DNA of 64,000 bases from Spirochaetota bacterium (GTDB lineage: Bacteria > Spirochaetota > UBA4802 > UBA5550), in contig JAGNKX010000011.1 in assembly GCA_017999915.1 (NCBI GenBank), positions 1 through 64,000 of the forward strand, given 5' to 3'. The notes under the pieces are model-generated. The model was given only the letters and a program-made list of their open reading frames with translations, was not told where the DNA came from and did not search any database. A program made the translations under genes and the position numbers. Each line of letters begins with the position of its first letter. Within the stretch, counting starts at the first letter, position 1. Shown here in pieces: positions 4,028-44,213 of the stretch.

Positions 4028-5413
4028 CTACACCTGCTTTTTTTCTTCCATCTCCTTGATCTGCCGGAGAATATCCCGGTATCTCTCCTCGTTGATGGGA
4101 TAAAAATAAAGTACAAGGGCGCCCGCGGCGAGTATGGCTGCCGGTATTGGTCCGAGGAAAAGGCGGATGCCAAGCTGAGCAGAGGGCGTCTGTGCTACGT
4201 TCTCAACGTATCCGGACAGGCTGAGGATCCACCCCATGACAAAAATGGCAAAGGCCTGGCCGATCTTAAACCCCCAGGTCCATATGCTGTAGAAGGCTCC
4301 CTCCCGGCGCTCGCCGGTTTTGAGGTAATCGTACTCGATCGCGTCAGGGACTATCGCAAAGGGCATAGCATAGGTGAAGCCGAACCCGATCCCGGTAAAA
4401 AACATCATGCCGTACATGAAATTGATGCCGAGAACATGGCCGTAGAAGAAGATGATCATGAGCGCGAAAGCTTTAATGAGAAGGCCGATCGCGTAGACGA
4501 GCTTCTTACCGATTTTTTTGGACAGGATGACGCTCACCGGGATCATCGTCAGCGCGGTGATAATCAGAATTGGCAGCGCTATGTTGGTCCCTTCAACGTG
4601 ATTGAGTATGTACTTGAAATAATAGATGGCGATGCCGCTCAGAATGGTTATGCCCATGATGTGGAACACGTAGGCAAGGAGGATAAGAAGGTACGGCTTG
4701 TTTTTGAAGACCGTGCGGTAGGTTTTCAATATCCCCATCGATTCGGCGGGCCGAAGCTTCGCCGGTTCCCGTACCAATATGACGGTCAGCAGAGCGGTGA
4801 TCATCATGGCGCCGCCGAAGATCGCGCCCAGGGCGGCGAACCCGACGGTCTTGTCCGCGAACATCCCGACGAGGGGAAGGGCCACGCCGGCGCCCAGGAG
4901 CGTTCCTATCGCCGCGAACCCGAAGCGGAACCCGTTGAGGCTGGTGCGCTCGTGGAAGTCCTGCGTCAGCTCGGGCACCATGGCGTTGTAGGGGATGTTG
5001 ACCGTCGAGTACGAGGTGCAGAGCAGCATGTAGATCACCGTCACCCATATGAAAAGAAAAGTCTGGTTCGCGGCACTCTGCCAGCCCCCTCCCATGAACA
5101 TCGCCGGATTGAGAAACATGAATATCATGGTTATGAAGAGGGGGATCGAGCCGGCGAGTAGGTACGGCCTGCGTCGCCCCATTGTGCTCCTGGTGCGGTC
5201 TGATATGTACCCGATGACGGGGTCGTAGAAGGCATCCCATATCCTGCCGATCATGAGGGCGGTGCCCGCTAGACCCGCAGCGAGCCCCACCGTGTCGGTG
5301 AGATAATTCATCAGCACGAACGCGGTGACCGTGAAGAAGAGGTTGCCGCCGACGTCGCAGACCCCGTAACCGAGTTTGGTCTTGAGAGATAATTTGGACA
5401 ATGTGTTTCCCAT
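4028..5413 (-). CDS. GPH-family glycoside/hexuronide:cation symporter (MFS)
   Basis: A 461-residue transporter with about 12 membrane segments. The N-terminus (KLSLKTKLGYGVCDVGGNLF), the TM2-loop motif YDPVIGYISDRTRSTMGRRR and NIPYNAMVPELTQDFHERT are hallmarks of the glycoside-pentoside-hexuronide family (MelB, XynP, YicJ). These import sugars with H+ or Na+ across the inner membrane. The ATG at 5413 has GGGAG upstream. It is the last gene of a same-strand run (isomerase, dehydrogenase, transporter), so it probably imports the sugar those enzymes process; the sugar cannot be told from sequence. Confidence 0.88.
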   Translation of the reverse strand: MGNTLSKLSLKTKLGYGVCDVGGNLFFTVTAFVLMNYLTDTVGLAAGLAGTALMIGRIWDAFYDPVIGYISDRTRSTMGRRRPYLLAGSIPLFITMIFMFLNPAMFMGGGWQSAANQTFLFIWVTVIYMLLCTSYSTVNIPYNAMVPELTQDFHERTSLNGFRFGFAAIGTLLGAGVALPLVGMFADKTVGFAALGAIFGGAMMITALLTVILVREPAKLRPAESMGILKTYRTVFKNKPYLLILLAYVFHIMGITILSGIAIYYFKYILNHVEGTNIALPILIITALTMIPVSVILSKKIGKKLVYAIGLLIKAFALMIIFFYGHVLGINFMYGMMFFTGIGFGFTYAMPFAIVPDAIEYDYLKTGERREGAFYSIWTWGFKIGQAFAIFVMGWILSLSGYVENVAQTPSAQLGIRLFLGPIPAAILAAGALVLYFYPINEERYRDILRQIKEMEEKKQV

Positions 5414-5498
5414 GGCTTAGCTCCCTTCCTATTAATACCCCAATGTTGATCTCAGCGATTGCAATGTCGCCACATCAAGCCCCGAAAAAAGGCCTTGG

Positions 5499-6683
5499 TT
5501 ACCAGTCGTGGGGACGATCGGTCTGGAACGATTCTATTTCACGAAACAGATTATCGCGCGTAATCTTGATCCCTTCCCTGGCAGACTTGTACGACGCGAG
5601 GGTCCACGCGATGGTGAGGAAAGAGTCTTCCGGCGTCGCGCCCCATGGGCCGCTGATGCCGTCTTTCATCGTATTCTCATGACGCACATTATCGATAAAG
5701 TACTTCATTTGCCGGTAAAACATGGTTTTCTTCCTGCTGTAAGGAAATATGACCGGATAGTAATGGTTATGGAGGATGTTTAGAAGCCGGTAAACGCCCA
5801 CCTTTAAGCGGCGCTTCTTGTACGCATGGGCGGCCCTGAAGGCGATCTTCCCCTTTTCTCCGTAAATATATCCCCGTTCAAACCCATAAGGACTTCCGGT
5901 GCGGATGACGTTCTTATCATAAAGAAGCACCGCGCCGTTGGAAAGCTTGAAGGTGGCCACCGCCAGATCCTCATACGGGCGCGATTCCGGATAGCATCGT
6001 TTCGTTTCGCATGAAACCTGTTCAATTTCCATTCCGTAGAACCGGATAATATCCAAATAGTGCGGCGCGTGATCAAAAAAATCGCCTCCGCCCGCCCTTA
6101 CATCGCTGTACCTCCAGAAGCCGAAGTCCCGCACCAGGTCGAATCCATATTTTTTCAGTTTCTGAACGATCTTTCCAAGCGGGCCGGCAGTGAAATCGGG
6201 AATGAAAAAGTACCAGAAGATACTTATCTGGAAGATCCTTCCAAGGGAATTGTTCATCAAGAGCTCCCTGATTCTCTGATGTCCCGGTTCAAATCGCTTG
6301 CAATGGCCCATGAGGATATAGACGTTTTGTTTTTTGCCGGCTTCAAGTATGGTACGGCAGTCCTTCAGATTCGTCGCCATCGGCTTCTCGCACAGGATCG
6401 GAAGGCCTTTTCTGGCGCTGTCTTCAACATGTACCGCGTGGAGTGATGGCGGCGACGATATGACGACTGCGTCCAGCTCTTCATTTTCGAGCATTGTGCG
6501 GTGGTCCTCGTAAACTCCCTGCACATGGTACTTTTTTGCGAACAGGCTTCTGTTGCGGTGATCGGGATCGCTGATGGCCGCGATATATGCCCGGCCATCA
6601 GCCTTGATGGCGGGACCATGGCCCACACGGCAAATATTCCCCGCGCCGATAAGACCTATTCTTGTTTTATCGCTTTTTTTCAT
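5499..6683 (-). CDS. Gfo/Idh/MocA-family oxidoreductase
   Basis: A 394-residue NAD(P)-dependent sugar or cyclitol dehydrogenase. The N-terminal Rossmann domain has GLIGAGNICRVGH, then AAISDPD, and the signature CEKPMA (about residue 97) with its catalytic Lys. The second domain contains GGGDFFDHAPHYLDIIRFYG, matching the family GG-x-x-x-D-x-x-x-H active-site segment. I prefer the ATG at 6683, nine bases after AGAGG, over the ATG at 6692 that directly abuts it. It is AT-richer than the flanking chromosome. A truncated relative lies at 7736. The substrate is unknown. Confidence 0.87.
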   Translation of the reverse strand: MKKSDKTRIGLIGAGNICRVGHGPAIKADGRAYIAAISDPDHRNRSLFAKKYHVQGVYEDHRTMLENEELDAVVISSPPSLHAVHVEDSARKGLPILCEKPMATNLKDCRTILEAGKKQNVYILMGHCKRFEPGHQRIRELLMNNSLGRIFQISIFWYFFIPDFTAGPLGKIVQKLKKYGFDLVRDFGFWRYSDVRAGGGDFFDHAPHYLDIIRFYGMEIEQVSCETKRCYPESRPYEDLAVATFKLSNGAVLLYDKNVIRTGSPYGFERGYIYGEKGKIAFRAAHAYKKRRLKVGVYRLLNILHNHYYPVIFPYSRKKTMFYRQMKYFIDNVRHENTMKDGISGPWGATPEDSFLTIAWTLASYKSAREGIKITRDNLFREIESFQTDRPHDW

Positions 6684-6833
6684 AATTCCCATCCTCTGGC
6701 GTTTTATATCCTTTTATTATCAAGGCAATTCCATTGCATAAAACGAATATAACGCCGGTGCATCTTCCATGGCACGGGTTCATTTCGTGCGGCTTTAAAC
6801 GATTGAGGGCAGTCACAAGACTACCCTCCCTGA

Positions 6834-7673
6834 TTATATTTGCCGCAATATTGCCTTAAGGTACTCTTTCGATTCAATCGCCCAGGCATCAATATCGATC
6901 GGATATCCGGTATGGACCTGTACCGTTAAATCGCCGTTATACTTTATTTCCTTGAGCGCGGAAAGAAAAGCTTTCCAGTTGACCGATCCGCGTCCGGGAG
7001 GCTGGTGATTGTCGCCCTGGCCGACGCCGTCGTTGTCGTTGCAATGGACGTACACAAGGTCTTTTCCCGCCTTTCGTACCGCGTCCGAAAGATTCGGATC
7101 GGTGATGTTTTGATCGGCCGTATCTATCATTACCTTGCAGTTGGGCGAATTGATTTCACGCATCATTTGAAGCGCGTCGTCCAGCGTCACCACCACGCGC
7201 GATTCGCACCATGTGAGGGTGTGAATCGCCATCATTACGCCTTTTTCCTTGGCATGTGCGACGACTTCACCCATGCATTCACGGTTCCATTCCCACGCCT
7301 GTTCCCGCGATGTTCCATGTATCATGTGGCCGCTGATCATATTGACGATGGGAATTTTCATGTCAGCGGCCATATCAACGCAATCGATATAGTATTCCAC
7401 TGACTTCTTCCTGATTTTCTCATTGGAATGGGAAAAATTGATGTGAAGCGCCAACCCTCCCCCATTGACTGAGAGCGCCACCGCATCCAGCCCGGAATCC
7501 TTTATTACTTCCATTACCTTCCGGCGTGCCCCGGCGTCATACAGATCGGGACCGAGGTGAGGACTGTACGCCCACATGTCTACGACCTTATATCCTATCT
7601 TCCCGATTCTTCTCACCGCTTCTTCCAGTGTCGTGTAATCAAGATAGCCCATTGTGCAAAAGCCCAGTCTCAT
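6834..7673 (-). CDS. sugar phosphate isomerase/epimerase (xylose isomerase-like TIM barrel)
   Basis: A 279-residue AP-endonuclease-2/xylose-isomerase-like TIM barrel. It shows the ordered metal-site segments of the family: an early GYKVVDMWAYSPHLG, IPIVNMISGH, the Asp of KVMIDTADQN, the His of LVYVHCNDNDG, and GRGSVNWKAFLSAL near the end. Members isomerise or epimerise ketoses, inososes or related sugars using a divalent metal. AGGAGG lies 9 bases before the ATG. It is upstream of the Gfo/Idh gene on the same strand (about 150-bp gap), a pairing common in inositol-type and keto-sugar catabolism. Confidence 0.85.
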   Translation of the reverse strand: MRLGFCTMGYLDYTTLEEAVRRIGKIGYKVVDMWAYSPHLGPDLYDAGARRKVMEVIKDSGLDAVALSVNGGGLALHINFSHSNEKIRKKSVEYYIDCVDMAADMKIPIVNMISGHMIHGTSREQAWEWNRECMGEVVAHAKEKGVMMAIHTLTWCESRVVVTLDDALQMMREINSPNCKVMIDTADQNITDPNLSDAVRKAGKDLVYVHCNDNDGVGQGDNHQPPGRGSVNWKAFLSALKEIKYNGDLTVQVHTGYPIDIDAWAIESKEYLKAILRQI

Positions 7674-7735
7674 GATAAATACCTCCTATGGTAAATTGCA
7701 TTTCATTATTATTACTTATTAAACAGCTCCTCCCT

Positions 7736-8221
7736 TTATATCTCCCTTCCTTCCGCGGCCGATAGGTACGCGGCCAGCGTCCATACAACCGCGATCATGG
7801 CATCCTTAATGCTTGCCGCCCATTGTTCCCCCTGATCGTGTTTGCCTGCCGCTCTATTATCAATCCTGTCGATAATGTGTTTCATCTGCCTGAAGTAGAG
7901 GATGTGTTTTTTGCCTCTGGGAAGGAATTGAGGAGTGTAAATATCCGGAATGATGTTGAACTTTTTGTTGAGTTTGAGCTTCATGGGTTTGTGCTGATAC
8001 TCCTGAAATGCCTCAAATTCGACCTTCGCGTATTCGCCGTAAAAATGGCCCTTTTCAAATCCACTGGGCCTTCCCATGACCATGATGATCTTCTCCATAA
8101 CGGCAACCGAATCGTTTGCAAGGGAGAACACAGCCATAAGGCTTTCCACCGGTTCAATTTTGGTCAGAAAATATATAAAATGATTATTGCATATTATACA
8201 ATAATTATGTATAATAAACAC
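7736..8221 (-). pseudogene. N-terminally truncated Gfo/Idh/MocA oxidoreductase remnant
   Basis: The open frame encodes 161 residues, but only the part from about 8150 down to 7736 is real homology. It parallels the C-terminal third of the dehydrogenase at 5499: GFEKGHFYGE versus GFERGYIYGE, YFRQMKHIID versus FYRQMKYFID, and VWTLAAYLSAAEGREI versus AWTLASYKSAREGIKI. The Rossmann domain and the CEKP motif are absent. The first 25 codons (MFIIHNYCIICNNHF...) are AT-rich non-homologous sequence. It is probably the remnant of a second dehydrogenase gene cut by a deletion that brought the AT-rich stretch and the repeat at 8484 next to it. Confidence 0.75.
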
Positions 8222-8483
8222 AAAAATAATTCCATGTCAATAACTAATTTAAAATTAATAAATATATCAGTAATTATTCTTAAATAGGGTATTTAATCGT
8301 TATTAACCGGCTTATATAGGACGCGCCGCAATCTGGATCAGTCCTCAGGAAAATACAACAGCTACAGGGGGAACAATGATTGTTAAAGGAGACAAAAATA
8401 TATACCGGACACAATAATGTCCGGCTTTACTCTTTTATAATTCATGAGGACTTCTCAAAATTACTTTTAAAAGGTCCCCATTG
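8222..8483. other. AT-rich intergenic stretch, no gene seen
   Basis: This stretch is much AT-richer than its surroundings, notably 8160-8290 (ATAATTATGTATAATAAAC, AAATTAATAAATATATC). It may hold promoters for the minus-strand sugar genes, but I see no confident -35/-10 pair and no coding frame. A small inverted repeat around ACCGGACA...TGTCCGG (8403-8424) could fold. Confidence 0.5.
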
Positions 8484-8599
8484 ATTATATAGGAAACTCT
8501 GACCAGATCGGTAATGGCCCAATAGATATAACAGGTCTTATCTGAAGCATAAAAAGGCATATGTCAACTGTAAAAGTTATGGACAGAGGTCTTAAAATT
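8484..8599 (+). repeat. 116-bp direct repeat, copy B (right bracket of sugar block)
   Basis: Same orientation and near-identical sequence to 3510-3625. Its internal frame reads MSTVKVMDRGLKIR and then stops, so here the gene start carried by the repeat is not followed by a gene. The ceramidase gene begins 45 bases later. Confidence 0.9.
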
Positions 8600-8643
8600 A
8601 GATAAAATGGATCCTGACATAAATCCAAGATTCGGAGCCAAAC

Positions 8644-10743
8644 ATGAGAATTACAAAGCTAATCATTGCTCTTATTGTATCCATGATGGTTTTCTCCTGC
8701 CAGGGAGATACCGGTTCCAAGATGAAGGCGCTCTTCGGTATCAGCGGGAGCGAACAGACCGCTTTCACCCCGGTTACACCCGCGGCAAGCATCCAGGCCT
8801 CGGTGCAATCCGCGACGCAGTACATCGTCGGCACAGGCATATACGACGTGACCGGCCCAGCCGCAGAGCTCGGCATGATGGGATATTCCATGGTCGACCA
8901 GAAGACCTCCGGCATTCACACGCGGCTCCGGTCCAGGGCCTACATCATCGGCGACATGAACACGAACAAGCGGGTTGTTATCGTGAGCGCGGACATCTGC
9001 ATGATATTCCAGTCCGTGAAGCTCAAGGTCACGCAGATGGTCAGGAATGACCCGGAACTCGCGCCTTATTATAATGAAAAAAACATCCTTCTTTCGGGGA
9101 ACCACACCCACAGCGGCCCCGGCGGATATTCACACTATGCCACCTACAATCTTTCCATACTCGGGTTTGACAAGCAGAACTTCGACGCCATCTGCAACGG
9201 CATCTTCAGCTCCATAAAACGCGCGCATCGCAACCTGGAGCCAGGCTATATTTTCGTCGCCAGGGGCGAGCTCAACGACTGCGGCTGGAACCGCTCGATC
9301 AACGCATACAACAGCAATCCCGCCGCGGAACGCGCCCGCTACGGCTCCTCCACGGATAAGACCATGACCCTGCTCAAGATAGTCTCTGCGTCGACAGGCA
9401 ACGAGCTCGGCATGATCAACTGGTTCGCGGTACACCCCACGAGCCTGGGCAATACCAACACCCTCATCTCCAGCGACAACAAAGGGCTCGCGGAATACTA
9501 TTTCGAGAAAATGAAGAACACGGACTATTCATCCTCGAAGACCTTCACCGCGGCGTTTGCGCAGACGAACTCCGGGGACGTATCCCCCAACATCTACTGG
9601 GGATACCCCCAGGGCGGCGAATCGGATTTCGAACATATGGAGATCATCGCCCAGAGGCAGTACAACAAGGCAGTCGAGCTCTACAATTCGGCCACCGAGG
9701 CCCTGTCTGGCCCGATCGACTTTCGCCACACCTGGGCCGACTTCACCTCCATCGCAGTCGATTCAGCGTATGCCGGGGCCTCGGGATACACAACCTGCTA
9801 TGCGGCCATCGGGTTCCCCCAGATCGCGGGAAGCACCGAGGACGGCAAGGGCGTCGACCTGACCCACGAGGGAATGGCCTGGGGCGACGGATCGTGGCCT
9901 TCGTTCACGCTCGTTCCCGGCGACCAGGAGTGCCAGGCCGAAAAGATCATCCTGCTCCCCGCGGGGAGGATGACCCCCTATCCCTGGGTGCCTCAGACCC
10001 TGCCGATGCAGATCATCCGCATCGGAAACCTGGCGCTCATCGCGGCGCCCGCCGAGGTTACGACCATGGCGGGGCGTCGTCTGCGCGAAACGGTTCTCAC
10101 CGCGCTTAACGGCTCGGGCATAAACTGCGCGGTCATATCCACCCATGCCAATACCTACACCTCCTACGTCACCACGCGCGAGGAATACGCGACCCAGCAC
10201 TACGAGGGAGGATCGACCCAGTTCGGTCCCTATACCCTCGCGGCGTTTCAGCAGATATTCAATAACCTGGCCACGGCCATGAAAAACGGCGCCGACGTGG
10301 CGCCGGGCACGACACCGCCGGACCTCGGCAACGTGCAGAACACCCTGCAGACGGGCGTGGTCTTCGACGACAAGCCGCTGTTCAAGAGCTTCGGCGACGT
10401 GTATTCAGACGCATCTTCATCGTACACCCGGGGCGGCACGGTCAGCGTGACATTCTGGGGCGGGCATCCCAAGAACAACCTGCGCATCCAGGACACCTTC
10501 CTGAATGTGGAGCGCAAGAACGGCTCGTCGTGGGTGACGGTCGCTAACGATTGGGACCCCGAGACCCGCTACATGTGGAAGCGCGACGGCGTGGCGAATT
10601 CCAAGGTCACTATCCGGTGGAAGATTCCGGCCAATGCGGCCACGGGGCAGTACCGGATCCGGCATTTCGGCAACTGGAAGTCGGGATGGACCGGGGCAAT
10701 TTCATCCTATACCGGCACCTCGCGCACCTTCACGGTTAACTGA
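8644..10743 (+). CDS. neutral/alkaline non-lysosomal ceramidase, lipoprotein
   Basis: A 699-residue ceramidase that splits the amide bond of ceramide into sphingosine and fatty acid. A lipoprotein signal (MRITKLIIALIVSMMVFSC, lipid Cys19) places it at the outer surface or periplasm. The catalytic domain has GTGIYDVTGP near the start, the zinc site NHTHSGPGG, the nucleophile motif NSGDVSPN (Ser corresponds to Ser274 of the Pseudomonas enzyme), and AAPAEVTTMAGRRLR with CAVISTHANTYTSYVTT. A C-terminal beta-sandwich (about 570-699) matches the usual ceramidase tail. GGAG precedes the ATG. It is followed by a strong terminator, so it is probably a single-gene unit. Confidence 0.93.
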   Translation: MRITKLIIALIVSMMVFSCQGDTGSKMKALFGISGSEQTAFTPVTPAASIQASVQSATQYIVGTGIYDVTGPAAELGMMGYSMVDQKTSGIHTRLRSRAYIIGDMNTNKRVVIVSADICMIFQSVKLKVTQMVRNDPELAPYYNEKNILLSGNHTHSGPGGYSHYATYNLSILGFDKQNFDAICNGIFSSIKRAHRNLEPGYIFVARGELNDCGWNRSINAYNSNPAAERARYGSSTDKTMTLLKIVSASTGNELGMINWFAVHPTSLGNTNTLISSDNKGLAEYYFEKMKNTDYSSSKTFTAAFAQTNSGDVSPNIYWGYPQGGESDFEHMEIIAQRQYNKAVELYNSATEALSGPIDFRHTWADFTSIAVDSAYAGASGYTTCYAAIGFPQIAGSTEDGKGVDLTHEGMAWGDGSWPSFTLVPGDQECQAEKIILLPAGRMTPYPWVPQTLPMQIIRIGNLALIAAPAEVTTMAGRRLRETVLTALNGSGINCAVISTHANTYTSYVTTREEYATQHYEGGSTQFGPYTLAAFQQIFNNLATAMKNGADVAPGTTPPDLGNVQNTLQTGVVFDDKPLFKSFGDVYSDASSSYTRGGTVSVTFWGGHPKNNLRIQDTFLNVERKNGSSWVTVANDWDPETRYMWKRDGVANSKVTIRWKIPANAATGQYRIRHFGNWKSGWTGAISSYTGTSRTFTVN

Positions 10744-10766
10744 CAGGCTTTGCAAAAGCTTCAAAG

Positions 10767-10793
10767 GAAAGCGCCCCTCAGGGGCGCTTTTTT
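10767..10793 (+). terminator. intrinsic terminator after the ceramidase gene
   Basis: AAAGCGCCCC-TCA-GGGGCGCTTTTTT: a 10-bp GC-rich stem with a 3-base loop and a run of T, 24 bases after the ceramidase stop. Confidence 0.9.
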
Positions 10794-11080
10794 GTGCCCG
10801 CACATAACTTACTTGATATCAAGCGATCATATGGTGTTTTCCTGCATCCACCCGGTCCTGGCTCCGCCGGTGAGGATGTGACGCAATAGCTCTATCATAG
10901 AGAAAGGTCTACATCAGTTCCTACGCAGCCCTGCGGGGGGACAGGAGGGGGAATTCTCATCGCGGAGGGCCCGGCAACCCGAAAAAATGTACTTGCCATC
11001 ATCCATTAATTATGAATAATGTCTTGTCAAAGAAACCGCGGAGGCACCGGACCTCCCTGACACGAGAGAACAGAAGAACC
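10794..11080. other. leader region upstream of bactofilin, nothing identified
   Basis: About 290 bases between the terminator and the bactofilin start. It contains GGGGGGACAGGAGGGGG near 10937 but no frame of convincing length. The promoter of the bactofilin/yaaR/holB/ricT cluster must lie here; no clear -35/-10 pair stands out. Confidence 0.4.
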
Positions 11081-11446
11081 ATGGCACGAAACGCAAAATT
11101 AGCTGAAGATAATATCGTCAACAGCATCATCGGCGAAGGCTCCAACTTCAAGGGCGAGTTCAATATCAACGGCCTCCTCAGGATCGACGGCCACTTCCAG
11201 GGCACCATCGAGACGGACGGCAAGGTCCTCATCGGCCAGACCGGCGAGGCCATCACGGACATCAAGGCGCGCCTGGTCGTCGTGGGCGGCACGGTCCGGG
11301 GCAACATCTTCGCCACCGAGCGGGTCATCTTTCTGTCGACGGGGGTCATCAACGGCACCATCATCACGCCGAGCCTCATCATGGAGGACGGGGTGAAGTT
11401 CGAGGGCACCTGCACCATCAACAAGCGGCCGGAAGAAATGCAATGA
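11081..11446 (+). CDS. bactofilin (polymer-forming cytoskeletal protein)
   Basis: A 121-residue bactofilin. The core (about residues 15-110) is built from short repeating beta turns rich in G and I: GEGSNFKGEFNINGLLRIDG, HFQGTIETDGKVLIG, KARLVVVGGTVRGNIFATER, GVINGTIITPSLIMEDG. These form a right-handed beta-helix that polymerises without nucleotide and helps set cell shape or place envelope enzymes. I chose the ATG at 11081 because it gives the usual length; an in-frame ATG at 11012 would add a basic stretch but has no ribosome site. Its stop overlaps the yaaR start by 4 bases, indicating coupling. Confidence 0.9.
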   Translation: MARNAKLAEDNIVNSIIGEGSNFKGEFNINGLLRIDGHFQGTIETDGKVLIGQTGEAITDIKARLVVVGGTVRGNIFATERVIFLSTGVINGTIITPSLIMEDGVKFEGTCTINKRPEEMQ

Positions 11447-11889
11447 TCGAGATCACCGGGGCGCGCGCCCGAAAAGACGAAAAGGAAAAGATCACCAAGA
11501 AGGGAAAGCTCTCCTCCGTGAAGCACGGGAGCAAGACCTTCTCCTCTGAGCTGCAGAAGACCATGGCCATCGATATCGACGGCACCATCGACGAGCTCAT
11601 GGAGGACCTGAAAGACCAGGAAAAGCGCTTCCTCGATACGCAGTCCGAATACGACCTGCTCCGCTACAAGGCCCTGGTGCAGAAGATCATCAAGCAGATC
11701 CTCGCCGAGGGACTGCAGGAAAAGACCCTGAAGCGCAAGAAGAAGAACTGGGGCGATTACGTCATCATCGAGAAGATCAATACCAGGCTCCTGGACCTCA
11801 CCAACGCCATCACCAGACAGAACAAGGCCTTCAATCTCCTGAAAACCATCGAAGAAATCCGCGGGTTGATACTGGACCTGGTCTACTAA
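11443..11889 (+). CDS. YaaR-like DUF327 protein
   Basis: A 148-residue, largely helical, highly charged protein. Features include FSSELQKTM, DIDGTIDELMEDLKDQEKRF, YDLLRYKALVQKIIKQILAE and a C-terminal NKAFNLLKTIEEIRGLILDL. The pattern and length match YaaR (DUF327), which in Bacillus lies directly before holB and yaaT, exactly as here. The molecular role is not established. It overlaps bactofilin by 4 bases and sits 12 bases before holB. Confidence 0.8.
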   Translation: MIEITGARARKDEKEKITKKGKLSSVKHGSKTFSSELQKTMAIDIDGTIDELMEDLKDQEKRFLDTQSEYDLLRYKALVQKIIKQILAEGLQEKTLKRKKKNWGDYVIIEKINTRLLDLTNAITRQNKAFNLLKTIEEIRGLILDLVY

Positions 11890-11901
11890 GCTTCGCGCCC
11901 C

Positions 11902-12903
11902 ATGAACACCCTCGGCATCATCGGTCATACCCGTCAGCTGAACATCCTGGAGCTCCTCCGGGCAAGGCGCGGCGTGCCCGCCGCGATGCTCTTCTCAGGC
12001 AGGTCAGGCATCGGCAAGAAGCTCATCGCGCGGCGTCTCCTGGCGGCGCTCTTCTGCGGCGCCGGCGACCCTCCCTGCCTGGCGTGCCCGTCCTGCGTCC
12101 AGATCGCCGGGGGAACCTTCCCGGACATGATCGAGCTCCTCCCGGATGAAAAGGGGACCATCCCCATCGGCGGCGCCGACCGGAACGAGGCCGGCACCGT
12201 GCGGTGGCTCATCGACCGCCTCTCGAAGAAAACCGTGTCCGGGACCTATGGCGTCCTCATCGACGGCGCGGAGAACATATCCATCGGCGGCCAGAACGCC
12301 CTCCTGAAGACCATCGAGGAGCCCCAGGAAGGGGCCCATATCATAATCATCACCGCGAACAAGTCCCTTATCCTGCCGACGATCCTCTCCCGGTGCATGG
12401 AGCTCTCCTTCAACCCCCTGAGCGGCGGCGAGGTGCGGCAGGTCCTGGAGGCCTCGGGCGAAGCGCCGGCGGAAAGCGGCCTCGCGGCCGAGCTCTCCGG
12501 CGGCTCGGTGGAATTGGCGCTCCTTCTTTCCGATGACGCGGTACTCGGCGGCATCGGGACGCTCTGCGGCGAGATATCCGCCTGCGTGAACCGGGGGGAG
12601 GGCCTCGGCCTTGACATGGCCGCCATCCAGAAAAAGGCGGCCCTGGACCAGGTCCTCACGGTCATGGTCAACGCCTACCGGGCCATACTCGCGGCGGACA
12701 TCGGCGGGAGCCCCCTGGACCCGTTTATAGAGAAGCTGCGGATCGACGACAGGCAAAAGTTGGTCAAATTAATAAAAATTCTGCTTGCCCTGAGAAAAGG
12801 ACTTGCCAATAATCTGAACATCCGCGGCGCTTTGAAGGGAATGGTCTATGCCATTGACAGCGTCGACGAGCTCGGCCTGCCGCGCCTCGACCGGGCTGAA
12901 TAA
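11902..12903 (+). CDS. holB: DNA polymerase III delta-prime subunit
   Basis: A 333-residue clamp-loader subunit of the AAA+ fold. It has a P-loop GRSGIGKK (about residues 33-40), a four-Cys zinc module (CGAGDPPCLACPSC, about 52-65), the DGAENISIGGQNALLKTIEEP segment, and the sensor-1/SRC region LPTILSRCMEL. It works with DnaX and HolA to load the beta clamp. The C-terminal third is weakly conserved, as usual. The gene lies between yaaR and ricT. Confidence 0.88.
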   Translation: MNTLGIIGHTRQLNILELLRARRGVPAAMLFSGRSGIGKKLIARRLLAALFCGAGDPPCLACPSCVQIAGGTFPDMIELLPDEKGTIPIGGADRNEAGTVRWLIDRLSKKTVSGTYGVLIDGAENISIGGQNALLKTIEEPQEGAHIIIITANKSLILPTILSRCMELSFNPLSGGEVRQVLEASGEAPAESGLAAELSGGSVELALLLSDDAVLGGIGTLCGEISACVNRGEGLGLDMAAIQKKAALDQVLTVMVNAYRAILAADIGGSPLDPFIEKLRIDDRQKLVKLIKILLALRKGLANNLNIRGALKGMVYAIDSVDELGLPRLDRAE

Positions 12904-36452: not shown

Positions 36453-36857
36453 ATGAAAAAAATCAAGGTGTCACTGGCGGCCGTTTCAGCTATCATGTTT
36501 CTCGTATCTGCAATGGCCGCGCATAATTGCGAAGCTGCGTCAAAGTTCGCCAAGGGAATGACCGTGGCGGCGAAATGGACCGATGACAACTATTACCTGG
36601 CGAAGATCAAAGCCGTCAACGGGGACAAGTACGATGTCGACTATGCAGACGGAACGAAGGGAACCGTCACCGCGGACCAGATAAAGGAAATCCCGGCGAA
36701 GCCCAAGCTCGCCAAGGGCGACAAGGTGCTTGCGGTCTGGGCCGGGGCCAAATTCTACAGCGGCACCGTGGTAGAGGTTAAGCCGAACGGCGCCATTGTC
36801 AAATGGGACGACGGCAGCTCTCCCTCCTTCGCTCCTTTCGGAAAGATAATCAAGTAA
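36453..36857 (+). CDS. exported protein with two Tudor/SH3-like repeats
   Basis: A 134-residue protein with a signal peptide (likely cleavage near NCEAA). The mature part holds two beta-barrel repeats of about 45 residues: FAKGMTVAAKWTDDNYYLAK with KYDVDYADGTKGTVTADQI, and LAKGDKVLAVWAGAKFYSGT with AIVKWDDGSSPSFAPFGKI. The W..Y/F...Y/W.DG pattern is Tudor/agenet-like. Eukaryotic Tudor domains bind methylated residues; an exported bacterial version probably binds something else. AAGGAG lies 7 bases before the ATG. Confidence 0.7.
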   Translation: MKKIKVSLAAVSAIMFLVSAMAAHNCEAASKFAKGMTVAAKWTDDNYYLAKIKAVNGDKYDVDYADGTKGTVTADQIKEIPAKPKLAKGDKVLAVWAGAKFYSGTVVEVKPNGAIVKWDDGSSPSFAPFGKIIK

Positions 36858-40713: not shown

Positions 40714-40716
40714 CTC

Positions 40717-40740
40717 ACTTTTTAGGAAATTGCATTCTCA
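40717..40740 (+). repeat. 24-bp direct repeat, left of the corrinoid operon
   Basis: ACTTTTTAGGAAATTGCATT followed by CTCA matches 43582-43605 exactly and in the same orientation. Its TTTAGGAAA start equals the left end of the 116-bp repeat family. Only the left end is present here. Confidence 0.85.
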
Positions 40741-40863
40741 GCAGAAGGATGCTTACGATCATGCTCGATAGGGAACGATATGCCCGCCTGTGTGGATTCA
40801 TCGACGGCTCCTTTGCACGCAACCACGGGGGCGCCCCGGAGGCAATCGCGGTCAGGGATCGTT

Positions 40864-41553
40864 TTACGGCAGGATCATCCGCCTGTACTGGCACCCCGTT
40901 TCAGGGCACTGAGGGCATGGTGTGAGGTGTTTCAACCTGCGGGCTCTGAGCATCAACCCGGTGATGGATTTCTCCGGCATCATAGCCGAGGCATGGTTCT
41001 TGACGATGCCGATCGATCCGGGATCGAGAAACGCGAACAGCTCCTCCTGCCCTTCCGCAAGATCCCAGTCGCAGTACCCGGGGCTGAAGCGCGCCGACAG
41101 GACGCAGCCCCCTTCCCGTGCCTCGTCGCGCAGGAACCGTTCGAAATCCCCGGCGAAGCGTTCCAAAAGCGCCGAGGCGGCGGCATCGGCGATGAAGGCA
41201 TCATTGAGGGATACGCGCAGCCGCCTTTCGATCTCCCGGTCGACCGCGCCGCCGAGGGTCATGGCAAAGCAGATGAGAACATCTGGACCGGTGCCGCGGG
41301 CCATGCCCGCCAGCTTCGCGCTGGATATCGTGACATGTTCGCCGCGAATCGCCTGATGATCCACCGCGGCAACGGGATCGTATTCGCACCGTACCCGGGG
41401 ATCGATTATTTCTCGAAGTCCGTCGCAGGCGCGCACGATGCGCTCTTCGGCGGCGTCATCGATTCTGCTGCCGGAGGGGTATCCCATCCGCAACGCGATC
41501 CTGCCCAGGAGATCGTCGGTTATCGTAAAGATGAATTCGAAAGTCTTATCCAT
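40864..41553 (-). CDS. MetH-activation-domain-like protein (corrinoid reactivation candidate)
   Basis: A 229-residue protein with the reactivation-domain signature of cobalamin-dependent methionine synthase: RFSPGYCDWDLAEGQEELFA and SAMMPEKSITGLML. An N-terminal cap region (GYPSGSRIDDAAEERIV) precedes it. The C-terminus has CPQCPETGC, three Cys that may hold a metal or cluster. In this setting it probably helps reductive reactivation of the corrinoid protein at 41597, taking the place of RamA-type activators, which are not encoded nearby. The last gene of the three-gene operon. Confidence 0.82.
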   Translation of the reverse strand: MDKTFEFIFTITDDLLGRIALRMGYPSGSRIDDAAEERIVRACDGLREIIDPRVRCEYDPVAAVDHQAIRGEHVTISSAKLAGMARGTGPDVLICFAMTLGGAVDREIERRLRVSLNDAFIADAAASALLERFAGDFERFLRDEAREGGCVLSARFSPGYCDWDLAEGQEELFAFLDPGSIGIVKNHASAMMPEKSITGLMLRARRLKHLTPCPQCPETGCQYRRMILP

Positions 41554-41596
41554 CGCGGTTTTCTTAGCGGATCAGCGCGGAATTGAAAAGCCCTTA

Positions 41597-42244
41597 TCAT
41601 TGTGCACCGAGCAGGCGCCTGATTTCGTCCGGAGCGGTGATCGCGCTGTCGGCGTAACCATCTGCCCCCATGACAAGCGCCATATCCCCGTCAAGAGCGG
41701 CCCCGCCGACGATTATCATCACCCGGGGATGCGCGGACTTCACCCCACGTATTATATCCTTCATAGTGTCGAGACAGGTGGACATCATGGAAGAGAGGGC
41801 GATAACGGCCGGTTTATCTCTCTGAATGACGGCCTGGATCGCTCGCAAACCGACTTCCCTGCCCATGTCTATCACCGGGTACCCTCGGGCCTCCAACACC
41901 GCGGCGACGATATTCTTTCCCATATCATGGACGTCCCCTTCCACCACGCCGATGGCGATTTTCGTGGTCCCTTTCGGGCTCCGCATCCCGGGATACGATA
42001 TCCGCAGCTGTTTCGCTCCCGCCCGGAACGTATCGATGACAAGCAAAAATTCCGGCAGGGAAATCCTTTTCCCGGACAGGCCGCATCTCGCGGAATCCAT
42101 CGCGCATATGAGCGCGTCCCGGGCTTTCTCTGCCGGGATGCCCTGACGTTTAGCCAGAAGGATCACGCCGCGAATCGCCGGCGCGTCATGGGCAAGGAGC
42201 GCCTCGTCAATGCCTGTCATAACAGATGCGGTATCTTTTTTCAT
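41597..42244 (-). CDS. corrinoid (B12-binding) methyl-carrier protein
   Basis: A 215-residue protein of the MtaC/MtbC/MttC type. The N-terminal helical domain (residues 5-90) precedes the Rossmann B12 domain with GVVEGDVHDMGKN, holding the D-x-H-x-x-G cobalt-ligand motif (Asp104, His106, Gly109), then VIDMGREVGLRAIQAVIQRD, ALSSMMSTCLDTMKDII and IIVGGAALDGDMA. It shuttles a methyl group on cobalt between methyltransferases. It lies 22 bases after the methyltransferase gene on the same strand. Confidence 0.9.
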   Translation of the reverse strand: MKKDTASVMTGIDEALLAHDAPAIRGVILLAKRQGIPAEKARDALICAMDSARCGLSGKRISLPEFLLVIDTFRAGAKQLRISYPGMRSPKGTTKIAIGVVEGDVHDMGKNIVAAVLEARGYPVIDMGREVGLRAIQAVIQRDKPAVIALSSMMSTCLDTMKDIIRGVKSAHPRVMIIVGGAALDGDMALVMGADGYADSAITAPDEIRRLLGAQ

Positions 42245-42266
42245 TGCCGGTTTTCCTGGAGTAGTA

Positions 42267-43421
42267 TCAGCCGAAACGGCGGGCCGCTTCCATCATAGCG
42301 AACGCGTTCGTGAGGGGAATATTGGGGGGATATTCGCATCCCGGAGCGAGGATATAGCCTCCATCCTTCCCCAATACGTCAATCTGTCTTTTACACGCAT
42401 CCATTACCTGTTCCGGCGTGCCGTGTATCAGAAGCTGCGTGGGAATATACCCGATGATCGTGGTCCGATCGCCATAGCGTCGTTTCAAATCAGCGTCCGT
42501 GGCGCAGTCATGGGGTAGATGGGCGATGCTCATCACGTGCGGCTCCATCCATTTCAGCATAAGATCCGCATAGGGGCCGTGACCGCAGTTGTGTACGCCG
42601 ACAAAGCACTTCTTCCGCCTGATTGCCCTGCTTATCTCCCGGGCACACGGGCCTTCGATGCGCTCCCAGATTTCCCGCGGCAGTCCGTTTTCACCGGCAT
42701 AGAGCGTGTCTATAGCCACCGCCGGTATCCCCGCGTCGCACTGTGCCTCGGCGTACCGCACCAGGGTTTCGGTCACCGCTTCGCAGGCCTTCTGCACTTT
42801 GTCGGGATACCGCACGCAATCCCGGAAGAACTGTTCCGCGCCCCTGAGCATGCTGAGCACCCCCGCGGGACCGAACACGAACCCTCCCACGAGGCCCCGC
42901 ATACCGACACGCCGCACCATGATATGGCACAATTTCAGGAACTCCCCCATGCGCCGCCAGTCACCGTCTCCCAGCGGTTTTAATTTTCCATAATCGTCCG
43001 GGGTTTTTATGAGGGGTTTCCTGTAATCGGGCCGCGCGGTTGAATCGTCAGGATAAATCATCGCCTGCCCGAAATCGGCCGCCTCGACCGAAAGATCGAG
43101 CATGAGAACGATCAGATCGCCCCCGATGAACTCGAAGCCGGAATAGAACACATCGGCCGCCGCTTCCCCGTTGAGGGAAAGGTCAGGAAAGGTGATGCCC
43201 TTAATGGCGCGGGCCGCCGAACATACGAGAGGCGTCACCGGGACCCTATCGGTCTTTTCATGGTACAACGCGGCGAAGGTTCGTTCAACCGTGGTGAGGG
43301 ATGAGATTCTTCCCCGGAGGCTGACGGCCCGCGCGACGGCCTTCAACACCGGTTCAGGCACTTCACCAGGGGGAGGAACGATTCCCTCTCTCAATGACGA
43401 CAAGACCCTTCCAGCATTCAT
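42267..43421 (-). CDS. UroD/MtaA-family corrinoid methyltransferase
   Basis: A 384-residue uroporphyrinogen-decarboxylase-superfamily protein. A HxC pair in VHNCGHG (His277, Cys279) and Cys362 in LAPGCEYPPNIP reproduce the zinc site of MtaA/CmuA methyltransferases; true decarboxylases lack it. Other segments are VGGFVFGPAGVLSMLRG and IPAVAIDTLYAGENG. The first 40 residues are an extension not usual for MtaA. It probably moves a methyl group to or from the corrinoid protein; the donor is unknown. It is the first gene of the operon, transcribed from near 43450. Confidence 0.88.
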   Translation of the reverse strand: MNAGRVLSSLREGIVPPPGEVPEPVLKAVARAVSLRGRISSLTTVERTFAALYHEKTDRVPVTPLVCSAARAIKGITFPDLSLNGEAAADVFYSGFEFIGGDLIVLMLDLSVEAADFGQAMIYPDDSTARPDYRKPLIKTPDDYGKLKPLGDGDWRRMGEFLKLCHIMVRRVGMRGLVGGFVFGPAGVLSMLRGAEQFFRDCVRYPDKVQKACEAVTETLVRYAEAQCDAGIPAVAIDTLYAGENGLPREIWERIEGPCAREISRAIRRKKCFVGVHNCGHGPYADLMLKWMEPHVMSIAHLPHDCATDADLKRRYGDRTTIIGYIPTQLLIHGTPEQVMDACKRQIDVLGKDGGYILAPGCEYPPNIPLTNAFAMMEAARRFG

Positions 43422-44213
43422 CGCGGCACATTCCCATACGGATGATTTATAATAACGGTGTTTGGAACGGCATATTACGTCAATAAAAATTTATAAATAA
43501 CAGTTATTCAAATAATTGATAAACAAAGGGCGTCATGATGATAGCCCCGATGAAATGGCCCAGAGCCTTTATCTTACTTTTACTTTTTAGGAAATTGCAT
43601 TCTCATAAGAATAGGTCCGCGGGACACGATGAGTTTTATCCGAATTTGCCCCCTCTCAAATTAAGCCCCTTCCGTCAGAAAAAGCGCCGGACAGAGGCTT
43701 AAAATTTCGTGCGCACTGTGAAAATTGAGTAGAATTCCTGAAAAGTCGAAAAGAATGCCTACCCGCGGATTAGTACAACAGCAGTCAGCAATATTTACAA
43801 AAAAATTTTAAGTATTATTGAGTAAAACTGAGCATCATGGCCCTTTCTTCATTCTGAAATATCCGCCATGAAGCAAGTGCGTCATCCATAATTTCCGCCA
43901 TTCCCGGTCGGCCAGGATGAATGAACGGCGATGACGCATGATGAAAACTATCTGTAATTTTATACGCGCCCCCGTCGGGGTACGGGGGGGGTGATGGGTT
44001 GGGGCCAGGAAGGCGAAGGCTGCAGGAAATGATACGCTGATTTCTTGATGCGAGGCGATTCATTGCTCGTCCGCCTCGTGCCTCGACTACGCTCGGCAAC
44101 CGAGGCGTTATTGACACATTAAGTTTAGACGGTTGGTGAGCCTGTTGAACCACGGCGGAATCGGCGACCTCCGTGTCGCCTGCTCGCTGATGAATCGACC
44201 GCGTTGAAAATTA
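43422..44213. other. 790-bp non-coding region with a repeat
   Basis: 43422-43580 is the upstream region of the corrinoid operon. 43582-43707 is a repeat copy. The rest (43708-44213) is mixed: AT-rich up to 43830, then segments such as GGGGTACGGGGGGGGTGATG (43976) and CCTCGACTACGCTCGGCAAC (44082) related to dispersed repeats. A possible 112-residue frame on the minus strand (43815-44153) has no protein-like features. Confidence 0.5.
43582..43707 (+). repeat. 126-bp repeat, right of the corrinoid operon
   Basis: The first 24 bases equal 40717-40740. It ends GGACAGAGGCTTAAAATTT, matching the right end of the copies at 3510 and 8484. The middle differs, but the length is similar, so this is a diverged full-length family member. 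Confidence 0.75.

Follow-up and report, generated by a model that had tools for sequence, protein, structure and literature searches.

The window analysed here, the whole stretch of 64,000 nucleotides, comprises positions 1-64000 of contig C11 in the source genome (G000), whose assembly holds 5,455,362 bases in 29 contigs at a completeness of 99.2%. Three minus-strand open reading frames (ORFs) in this window form one operon and encode a methyltransferase, a carrier and an activator, with intergenic gaps of 22 and 43 nt. All three ORFs, which an earlier note on this DNA had placed at 40864-43421, were confirmed at these coordinates.

42267..43421, minus strand: UroD-superfamily corrinoid methyltransferase, 384 aa; putative zinc motif H277, C279, C362
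41597..42244, minus strand: corrinoid (B12) methyl-carrier protein, 215 aa; PF02310, TIGR02370 subthreshold
40864..41553, minus strand: stand-alone MetH-activation-domain homologue, 229 aa, four conserved Cys
40717..40746, minus strand: direct repeat copy 1, length 30 nt, 93% to copy 2 with an exact core of 23 nt
43582..43611, minus strand: direct repeat copy 2, 30 nt
40714..44213, no strand: insertion of 3.5 kb that contains the operon, flanked by a thioesterase gene and ValRS, which lie next to each other in L102, L103 and L105

The GC content of the operon (59%) is similar to that of the neighbouring DNA. No Rfam family reached its gathering score in the window, and promoter and terminator scans of the window returned nothing clearly above shuffled sequence. 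A secreted-looking protein of 134 aa with two Tudor-like repeats (PF18115, PF18104) is encoded at window positions 36453-36857.

In three of five same-genus genomes (G097, G107 and G092), the stop of the thioesterase gene lies a few bases from the convergent stop of ValRS, the ValRS ends being judged by eye; a fourth genome (G122) has another gene after the thioesterase gene, and in the fifth (G135) no thioesterase match was found. Because the two genes are adjacent in same-genus genomes, we conclude that the operon was inserted at the thioesterase-ValRS site. The earlier note had noticed neither this site nor the flanking repeats. The 3.5 kb contain a repeat, the operon, the second repeat and about 600 bp, in this order, and the latter segment includes a 14-nt word that is also present at locus L057 of G000. 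The only two copies of the 23-nt core in G000 are those of the repeat pair that flanks the operon, and shuffles of the window contained none. Since the genome of 5.46 Mb has no more than these two copies even when three mismatches are allowed, a common genomic element is ruled out; a duplicated old target site is not supported either, because the empty sites and their flanks reach at best 13-15 of 24 bases. The best match in the flanks of the related operon in G139 is 16 of 24.

The UroD-type methyltransferase and the corrinoid carrier

The methyltransferase (METHYLTRANSFERASE) matches PF01208 with 197 bits, and its closest solved structure is MtaA (4ay7, E 4e-10), with which its putative zinc ligands align:

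42585..42593, minus strand: HNC, residues 277-279, contains two of the three putative zinc ligands; counterpart in MtaA 4ay7: HIC
42336..42338, minus strand: Cys362 in APGCEYPP, the remaining putative zinc ligand; counterpart in MtaA 4ay7: APGCGIAP

The earlier note had described an MtaA/CmuA-type enzyme, and the zinc motif agrees with this description. By NCBIfam profile and tree, however, the enzyme would not be filed in the MtaA/CmuA family, since it scores 106 bits with TIGR01463 (mtaA_cmuA), under the curated cut-off of 235, and forms an isolated clade with its orthologues in G139 and G222 (support 100/100, stem of 1.4 changes per site) in a tree of 43 rows. The best tree places this clade outside the MtaA/Acetoanaerobium clade (92/86, unstarred) and groups it weakly beside CdmB-like rows (91/86, unstarred). 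In AU tests, a joining with the MtaA clade (p 0.14 and 0.23), the HemE side (p 0.157) or Peptoclostridium (p 0.179) was not rejected, and sisterhood to the CdmB-like pair narrowly was (p 0.034). The phylogeny that the earlier note had proposed thus does not place the enzyme, and it leaves membership of the MtaA clade unrejected.

A true uroporphyrinogen decarboxylase (HemE), clustering with which would have refuted the earlier note, is extremely improbable. The enzyme does belong to the same superfamily (PF01208), of which it is the sole representative in G000, and the AU result for the HemE side is a matter of root position. The hemE profile, however, yields 22 bits against a cut-off of 303, and the HemE motif PVWMMRQAGR is absent, whereas the three HemE rows of the alignment have MRQAGR and lack the zinc-ligand motif that the enzyme carries. 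In addition, the gene shares its operon with corrinoid genes, and the HemE rows separate at 100/100 in the free 43-row tree. On motif and profile, HemE identity can be taken as ruled out. Because its sole PF01208 gene is the operon methyltransferase, G000 has no detectable HemE, and in such a genome this gene would easily be mis-annotated as HemE.

The weak grouping beside the CdmB-like rows would fit an O-demethylase or halomethane enzyme distantly related to the CdmB/VdmB group, as would a CdmB-like operon in G122 with a similar activator, a pterin methyltransferase and FAD oxidases. We consider this improbable, because sisterhood to the CdmB-like pair was narrowly rejected at p 0.034 and because all three zinc ligands are kept, whereas the CdmB-like row of the alignment lacks them and CdmB needs no zinc according to the excerpt of PMC13222342. 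Moreover, the operon contains no folate methyltransferase, and neither does G000 except for MetH and a FolP-like gene.

In the excerpt of PMC10418091 (Kountz and Balskus), UroD enzymes with a His-Cys-Cys site are argued to act on S or Se, and slow methylcobalamin:selenide transfer is shown for one of them. The His-Cys-Cys zinc site of the window's enzyme therefore suggests chemistry on S or Se, and methanol and O-methyl aromatics become less probable as donors. The earlier note had seen no indication of the donor in any neighbour; the zinc site gives a partial one. The genes next to the operon include none for sulfur or selenium. G000 encodes SelD with one in-frame TGA, a sign of selenocysteine use, but this does not discriminate for a link to selenium because the same is found in 9/9 genomes tested, most of them without the operon.

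The second protein is a B12 carrier, as previously described, which matches PF02310 with 80 bits and TIGR02370 with 100 bits, the latter subthreshold. It contains the DxHxxG motif that provides the cobalt ligand in corrinoid carriers:

41918..41935, minus strand: DVHDMG, residues 104-109, DxHxxG motif

Judged by ORF length, it is the only stand-alone carrier of about 215 aa among the 22 B12-binding matches in G000.

The stand-alone MetH-type activator

The third protein, which the earlier note had called MetH-activation-like with a C-terminal Cys trio, scores 18.6 bits with PF02965 (E 0.0014, cut-off 25), and its relatives L003, L004, L005/L065 and L132 exceed the cut-off with 35-38 bits. With the L003 protein it shares 38% identity (E 1.5e-41), and an eight-row activator profile matches 1j6r (E 3e-17) and E. 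coli MetH (1msk, E 3e-4). Because it is linked transitively via above-cut-off relatives, its homology to the MetH activation domain is secure, and this homology supports as probable the role of a reactivation partner that had been proposed for the third gene. The structure 1j6r, which we take to be TM0269 of Thermotoga maritima, a stand-alone MetH activation protein that reportedly serves the methionine synthase TM0268, likewise represents the homologous domain as a separate protein. In contrast to the operon activator, its aligned stretch reads GYG, and nothing in it matches the C-terminal Cys trio.

The four cysteines of the operon activator (161, 213, 216 and 221) are located in two motifs:

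41071..41091, minus strand: RFSPGYC, residues 155-161, RxxxGY motif then Cys161
40891..40917, minus strand: CPQCPETGC, residues 213-221, C-terminal Cys trio

R155-G159-Y160 aligns with RxxxGY of MetH, where this motif belongs to the SAM site. A survey found activators at 58 places in 57/296 genomes, all of which were inspected; 2 lie in full-length MetH and 56 are stand-alone. Nine of the 56 carry GYC and all nine also carry a C-terminal CxxCx4-5C trio, GYC is absent from each of the 45 that lack a trio, and two (L140, L142) have the trio without GYC (Fisher p 7e-9, relatedness among the 56 activators being ignored). The invariable pairing of GYC with the trio among the stand-alone activators (9/9) is a new observation, and the coupling of four cysteines, located at the SAM-site motif and beyond it, hints at a metal site. 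Structure models of the activator were poor (pLDDT 41.9 with one sequence, 51.0 with two).

Within the short flanks that were considered, a UroD- or MttB-type methyltransferase lies beside five of the nine GYC activators (window, L005, L007, L010, L031) and the other four show none. Among the 45 activators without trio, 15 have a pterin-type (MetH-like) neighbour, none has UroD or MttB and 30 have neither. That the trio is exclusive to non-MetH systems is ruled out by clostridial split-MetH activators from the plasmid collection (L188-L190), which combine GYG with the trio; with this rule rejected, only the GYC form stays linked with non-MetH systems. It is conceivable, albeit doubtful, that a four-cysteine branch of MetH-type activators left methionine synthase and became the reactivase, or a per-cycle SAM:corrinoid methyltransferase, of UroD/MttB systems, in which a metal cluster on Cys161-213-216-221 would replace the flavodoxin electron.

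Several further loci combine such proteins in other ways. L164 of G122 (4376-12574) encodes two FAD-binding oxidases, an Fe-S protein (by eye), a GYC activator, a carrier, a CdmB-like UroD protein and a pterin methyltransferase, and is probably an aromatic O-demethylation locus with a MetH-type activator. On a Gemmatirosa plasmid (L130), a CdmB-like UroD gene, a carrier, a RamA-like gene and a 407-aa activator-like protein bring both reactivase types together; the activator-like protein, beside RamA, has neither the RxxxGY/GYC nor the trio motif. In G139, L163 (9156-11342) encodes a 728-aa protein with 2Fe-2S and RACo domains and an N-terminal part without assignment, which neighbours two UroD genes, a CobW-like GTPase and a carrier.

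Relatives of the operon and other methyltransferases of the genome

A three-row alignment of the methyltransferase was searched against 392 genomes of Spirochaetota, of which 60 matched at E <= 0.001; three matches, including that of the window, are orthologues (E < 1e-249) and the next follows at E 7e-27. G139 has methyltransferase, carrier and activator in an order identical to that of the window, and in G222, an order-level relative, methyltransferase and carrier are followed by the contig end. Both have a 4Fe-4S protein upstream (L065, 397-1344, and L064, 338-1294), which the window's operon lacks; a fragment that resembles it by eye lies elsewhere in G000 (L050, 1-528). Outside the phylum, the plasmid collection supplied sets from Thiodictyon and from Acetoanaerobium, the latter a UroD-carrier-UroD-RamA-UroD set that resembles a type 1 mlp cluster. 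Peptoclostridium acidaminophilum has a distant carrier-UroD-activator set, whose activator (213 aa, labelled 'hypothetical protein') reaches 56 bits when searched with the activator profile, has no Pfam match and contains the trio without RxxxGY. The same organism has a separate metF-activator-MetH set, that is, a split MetH with its own activator.

The earlier note had stated that the operon contains only one methyltransferase, and indeed no second UroD-family gene (PF01208) exists anywhere in G000. The separate MttB-type substrate methyltransferase that it had suggested looking for was not found in G000. PF00809 matches two genes of G000, MetH on contig C1 and a 270-aa FolP-like gene on C5, beyond which the genome has no folate-type second methyltransferase. 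MetH is complete and has its own activation domain; therefore, the third operon gene does not belong to MetH, and the operon as the methionine synthase of G000 is ruled out.

The Wood-Ljungdahl genes, which the earlier note had also suggested looking for, are present as an acs cluster on C21, with AcsC-, AcsB-, CooS-, AcsD-, FolD-, CooC-, RACo- and Fhs-like genes, of which AcsB and RACo were identified by searches and the others from translations by eye. This RACo is the only one of G000. It is not part of the operon, whose three proteins have no match to PF14574 (RamA/RACo), in agreement with the earlier statement that a RamA-type activator is missing there. The sister genome G097 also contains acs genes, yet no UroD gene. 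At L178 (G000:C21:32000-51999), which holds the acs cluster with RACo, no AcsE-type gene accompanies it, as judged by PF00809 in G000 and G097, and the methyl-branch link of the cluster seems to be missing or unrecognised in both genomes.

These data bear on the idea that the UroD enzyme is a second methyltransferase, which passes methyl groups from the corrinoid to homocysteine or another thiol and is fed by a donor enzyme of a family other than those searched or by the Wood-Ljungdahl corrinoid protein. The acs cluster of G000 would be compatible with it, and MtaA is such a corrinoid-to-thiol enzyme according to the excerpt of PMC10418091. Furthermore, the activators at L007 (G174) and L010 (G216), two order-level relatives, have GYC and sit in sets of an MttB-type methyltransferase, activator, carrier and homocysteine S-methyltransferase, which look like direct methylamine- or betaine-to-methionine transfer. 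G000, however, has neither MttB nor a second UroD gene, MetH is already available for methionine, and G097 has acs without a UroD gene. We therefore regard this role as rather unlikely.

Mode of action and comparison with known systems

A general role in corrinoid methyl transfer with a MetH-type reactivase is very likely. More specifically, we favour, with a probability of slightly less than one half (about 0.48), that the operon is a self-contained S- or Se-methyl transfer module with a SAM-dependent reactivase, which was gained as a unit. Zn on His277-Cys279-Cys362 would bind a thiol, a selenol or a thio- or selenoether, and the UroD enzyme would shuttle the methyl group between the S or Se compound and the cobalt of the carrier. 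Because the operon lacks a partner methyltransferase, the enzyme probably performs both half-reactions, demethylating one S or Se compound and methylating another thiol such as sulfide or homocysteine, for which MtsA is said to be a precedent among UroD-type enzymes. Whenever Co(I) of the carrier slips to inactive Co(II), the activator would reduce and methylate the carrier with SAM, like the MetH activation domain, and a metal site formed by its four cysteines may provide the electrons.

Alternatively, SAM could be the stoichiometric donor, with the activator methylating the carrier in each cycle and the UroD enzyme passing the methyl group to an acceptor. This would explain the single methyltransferase and the lack of a donor gene, and G000 contains no other donor methyltransferase of the tested families; if true, the operon would be a SAM-driven corrinoid module. 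The activation domain of MetH, however, acts rarely and not once per turnover, and the Peptoclostridium activator has no RxxxGY. As described in the excerpt of PMC7448270, estrogen methylation by EmtABCD provides a precedent for a corrinoid methyltransferase driven by SAM, but EmtA is MtmB-like, not UroD-like, and the Emt system includes RACE. Thus, SAM as the stoichiometric donor is unlikely.

The favoured S- or Se-methyl transfer module shares several features with the type 1 mlp clusters in the excerpt of PMC10418091: a His-Cys-Cys UroD enzyme, a carrier, a reactivase, no folate methyltransferase and a selenocysteine-using genome. To belong to this type, a cluster needs at least two Mlps along with a Ram protein, and the operon is not a member because it has one UroD gene only and no Ram protein. 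It thus differs by one methyltransferase instead of two or three and by a MetH-type reactivase instead of Ram, and the 43-row tree does not place its methyltransferase in the Mlp/MtaA clade. The carrier-UroD-RamA operon of the Thiodictyon plasmid pTs417 (L127) likewise has one UroD enzyme, one carrier and one reactivase, but the reactivase is a RamA-type ASKHA protein and the UroD enzyme is 27% identical, with HTA in place of HxC. A UroD-type methyltransferase and a carrier are also combined in the cdmBCA chloromethane system (excerpt of PMC13222342) and the mec cassette (excerpt of PMC9768040); in contrast to the operon, both have a second, folate methyltransferase. In Cdm, moreover, zinc is not needed and the activator is ATP-dependent (PMC13222342), while MecGH of the mec cassette are termed likely reactivators (PMC9768040). 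The split MetH of Phaeobacter, as outlined in the excerpt of PMC5764234, shows that the type of reactivase is not tied to the type of methyltransferase and that the two can be exchanged; it is the mirror image of the present case, because a RamA-like protein serves MetH there and a MetH-type protein accompanies a UroD system here.

By titles and abstract openings, a MetH-type activator in a UroD operon was not found in the open-licence literature. The earlier note had left room for a match to a characterised demethylation operon, and none of the same composition was found in this literature. The operon is a real, compact variant among the known corrinoid systems.

No corrinoid methyltransfer system can do without reactivation, which is usually divided between MetH, which uses SAM and flavodoxin, and other systems, which use the ATP-driven RamA. 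The operon and its relatives suggest that this division of reactivases does not hold, and they offer small two- and three-protein systems in which it is open to testing.
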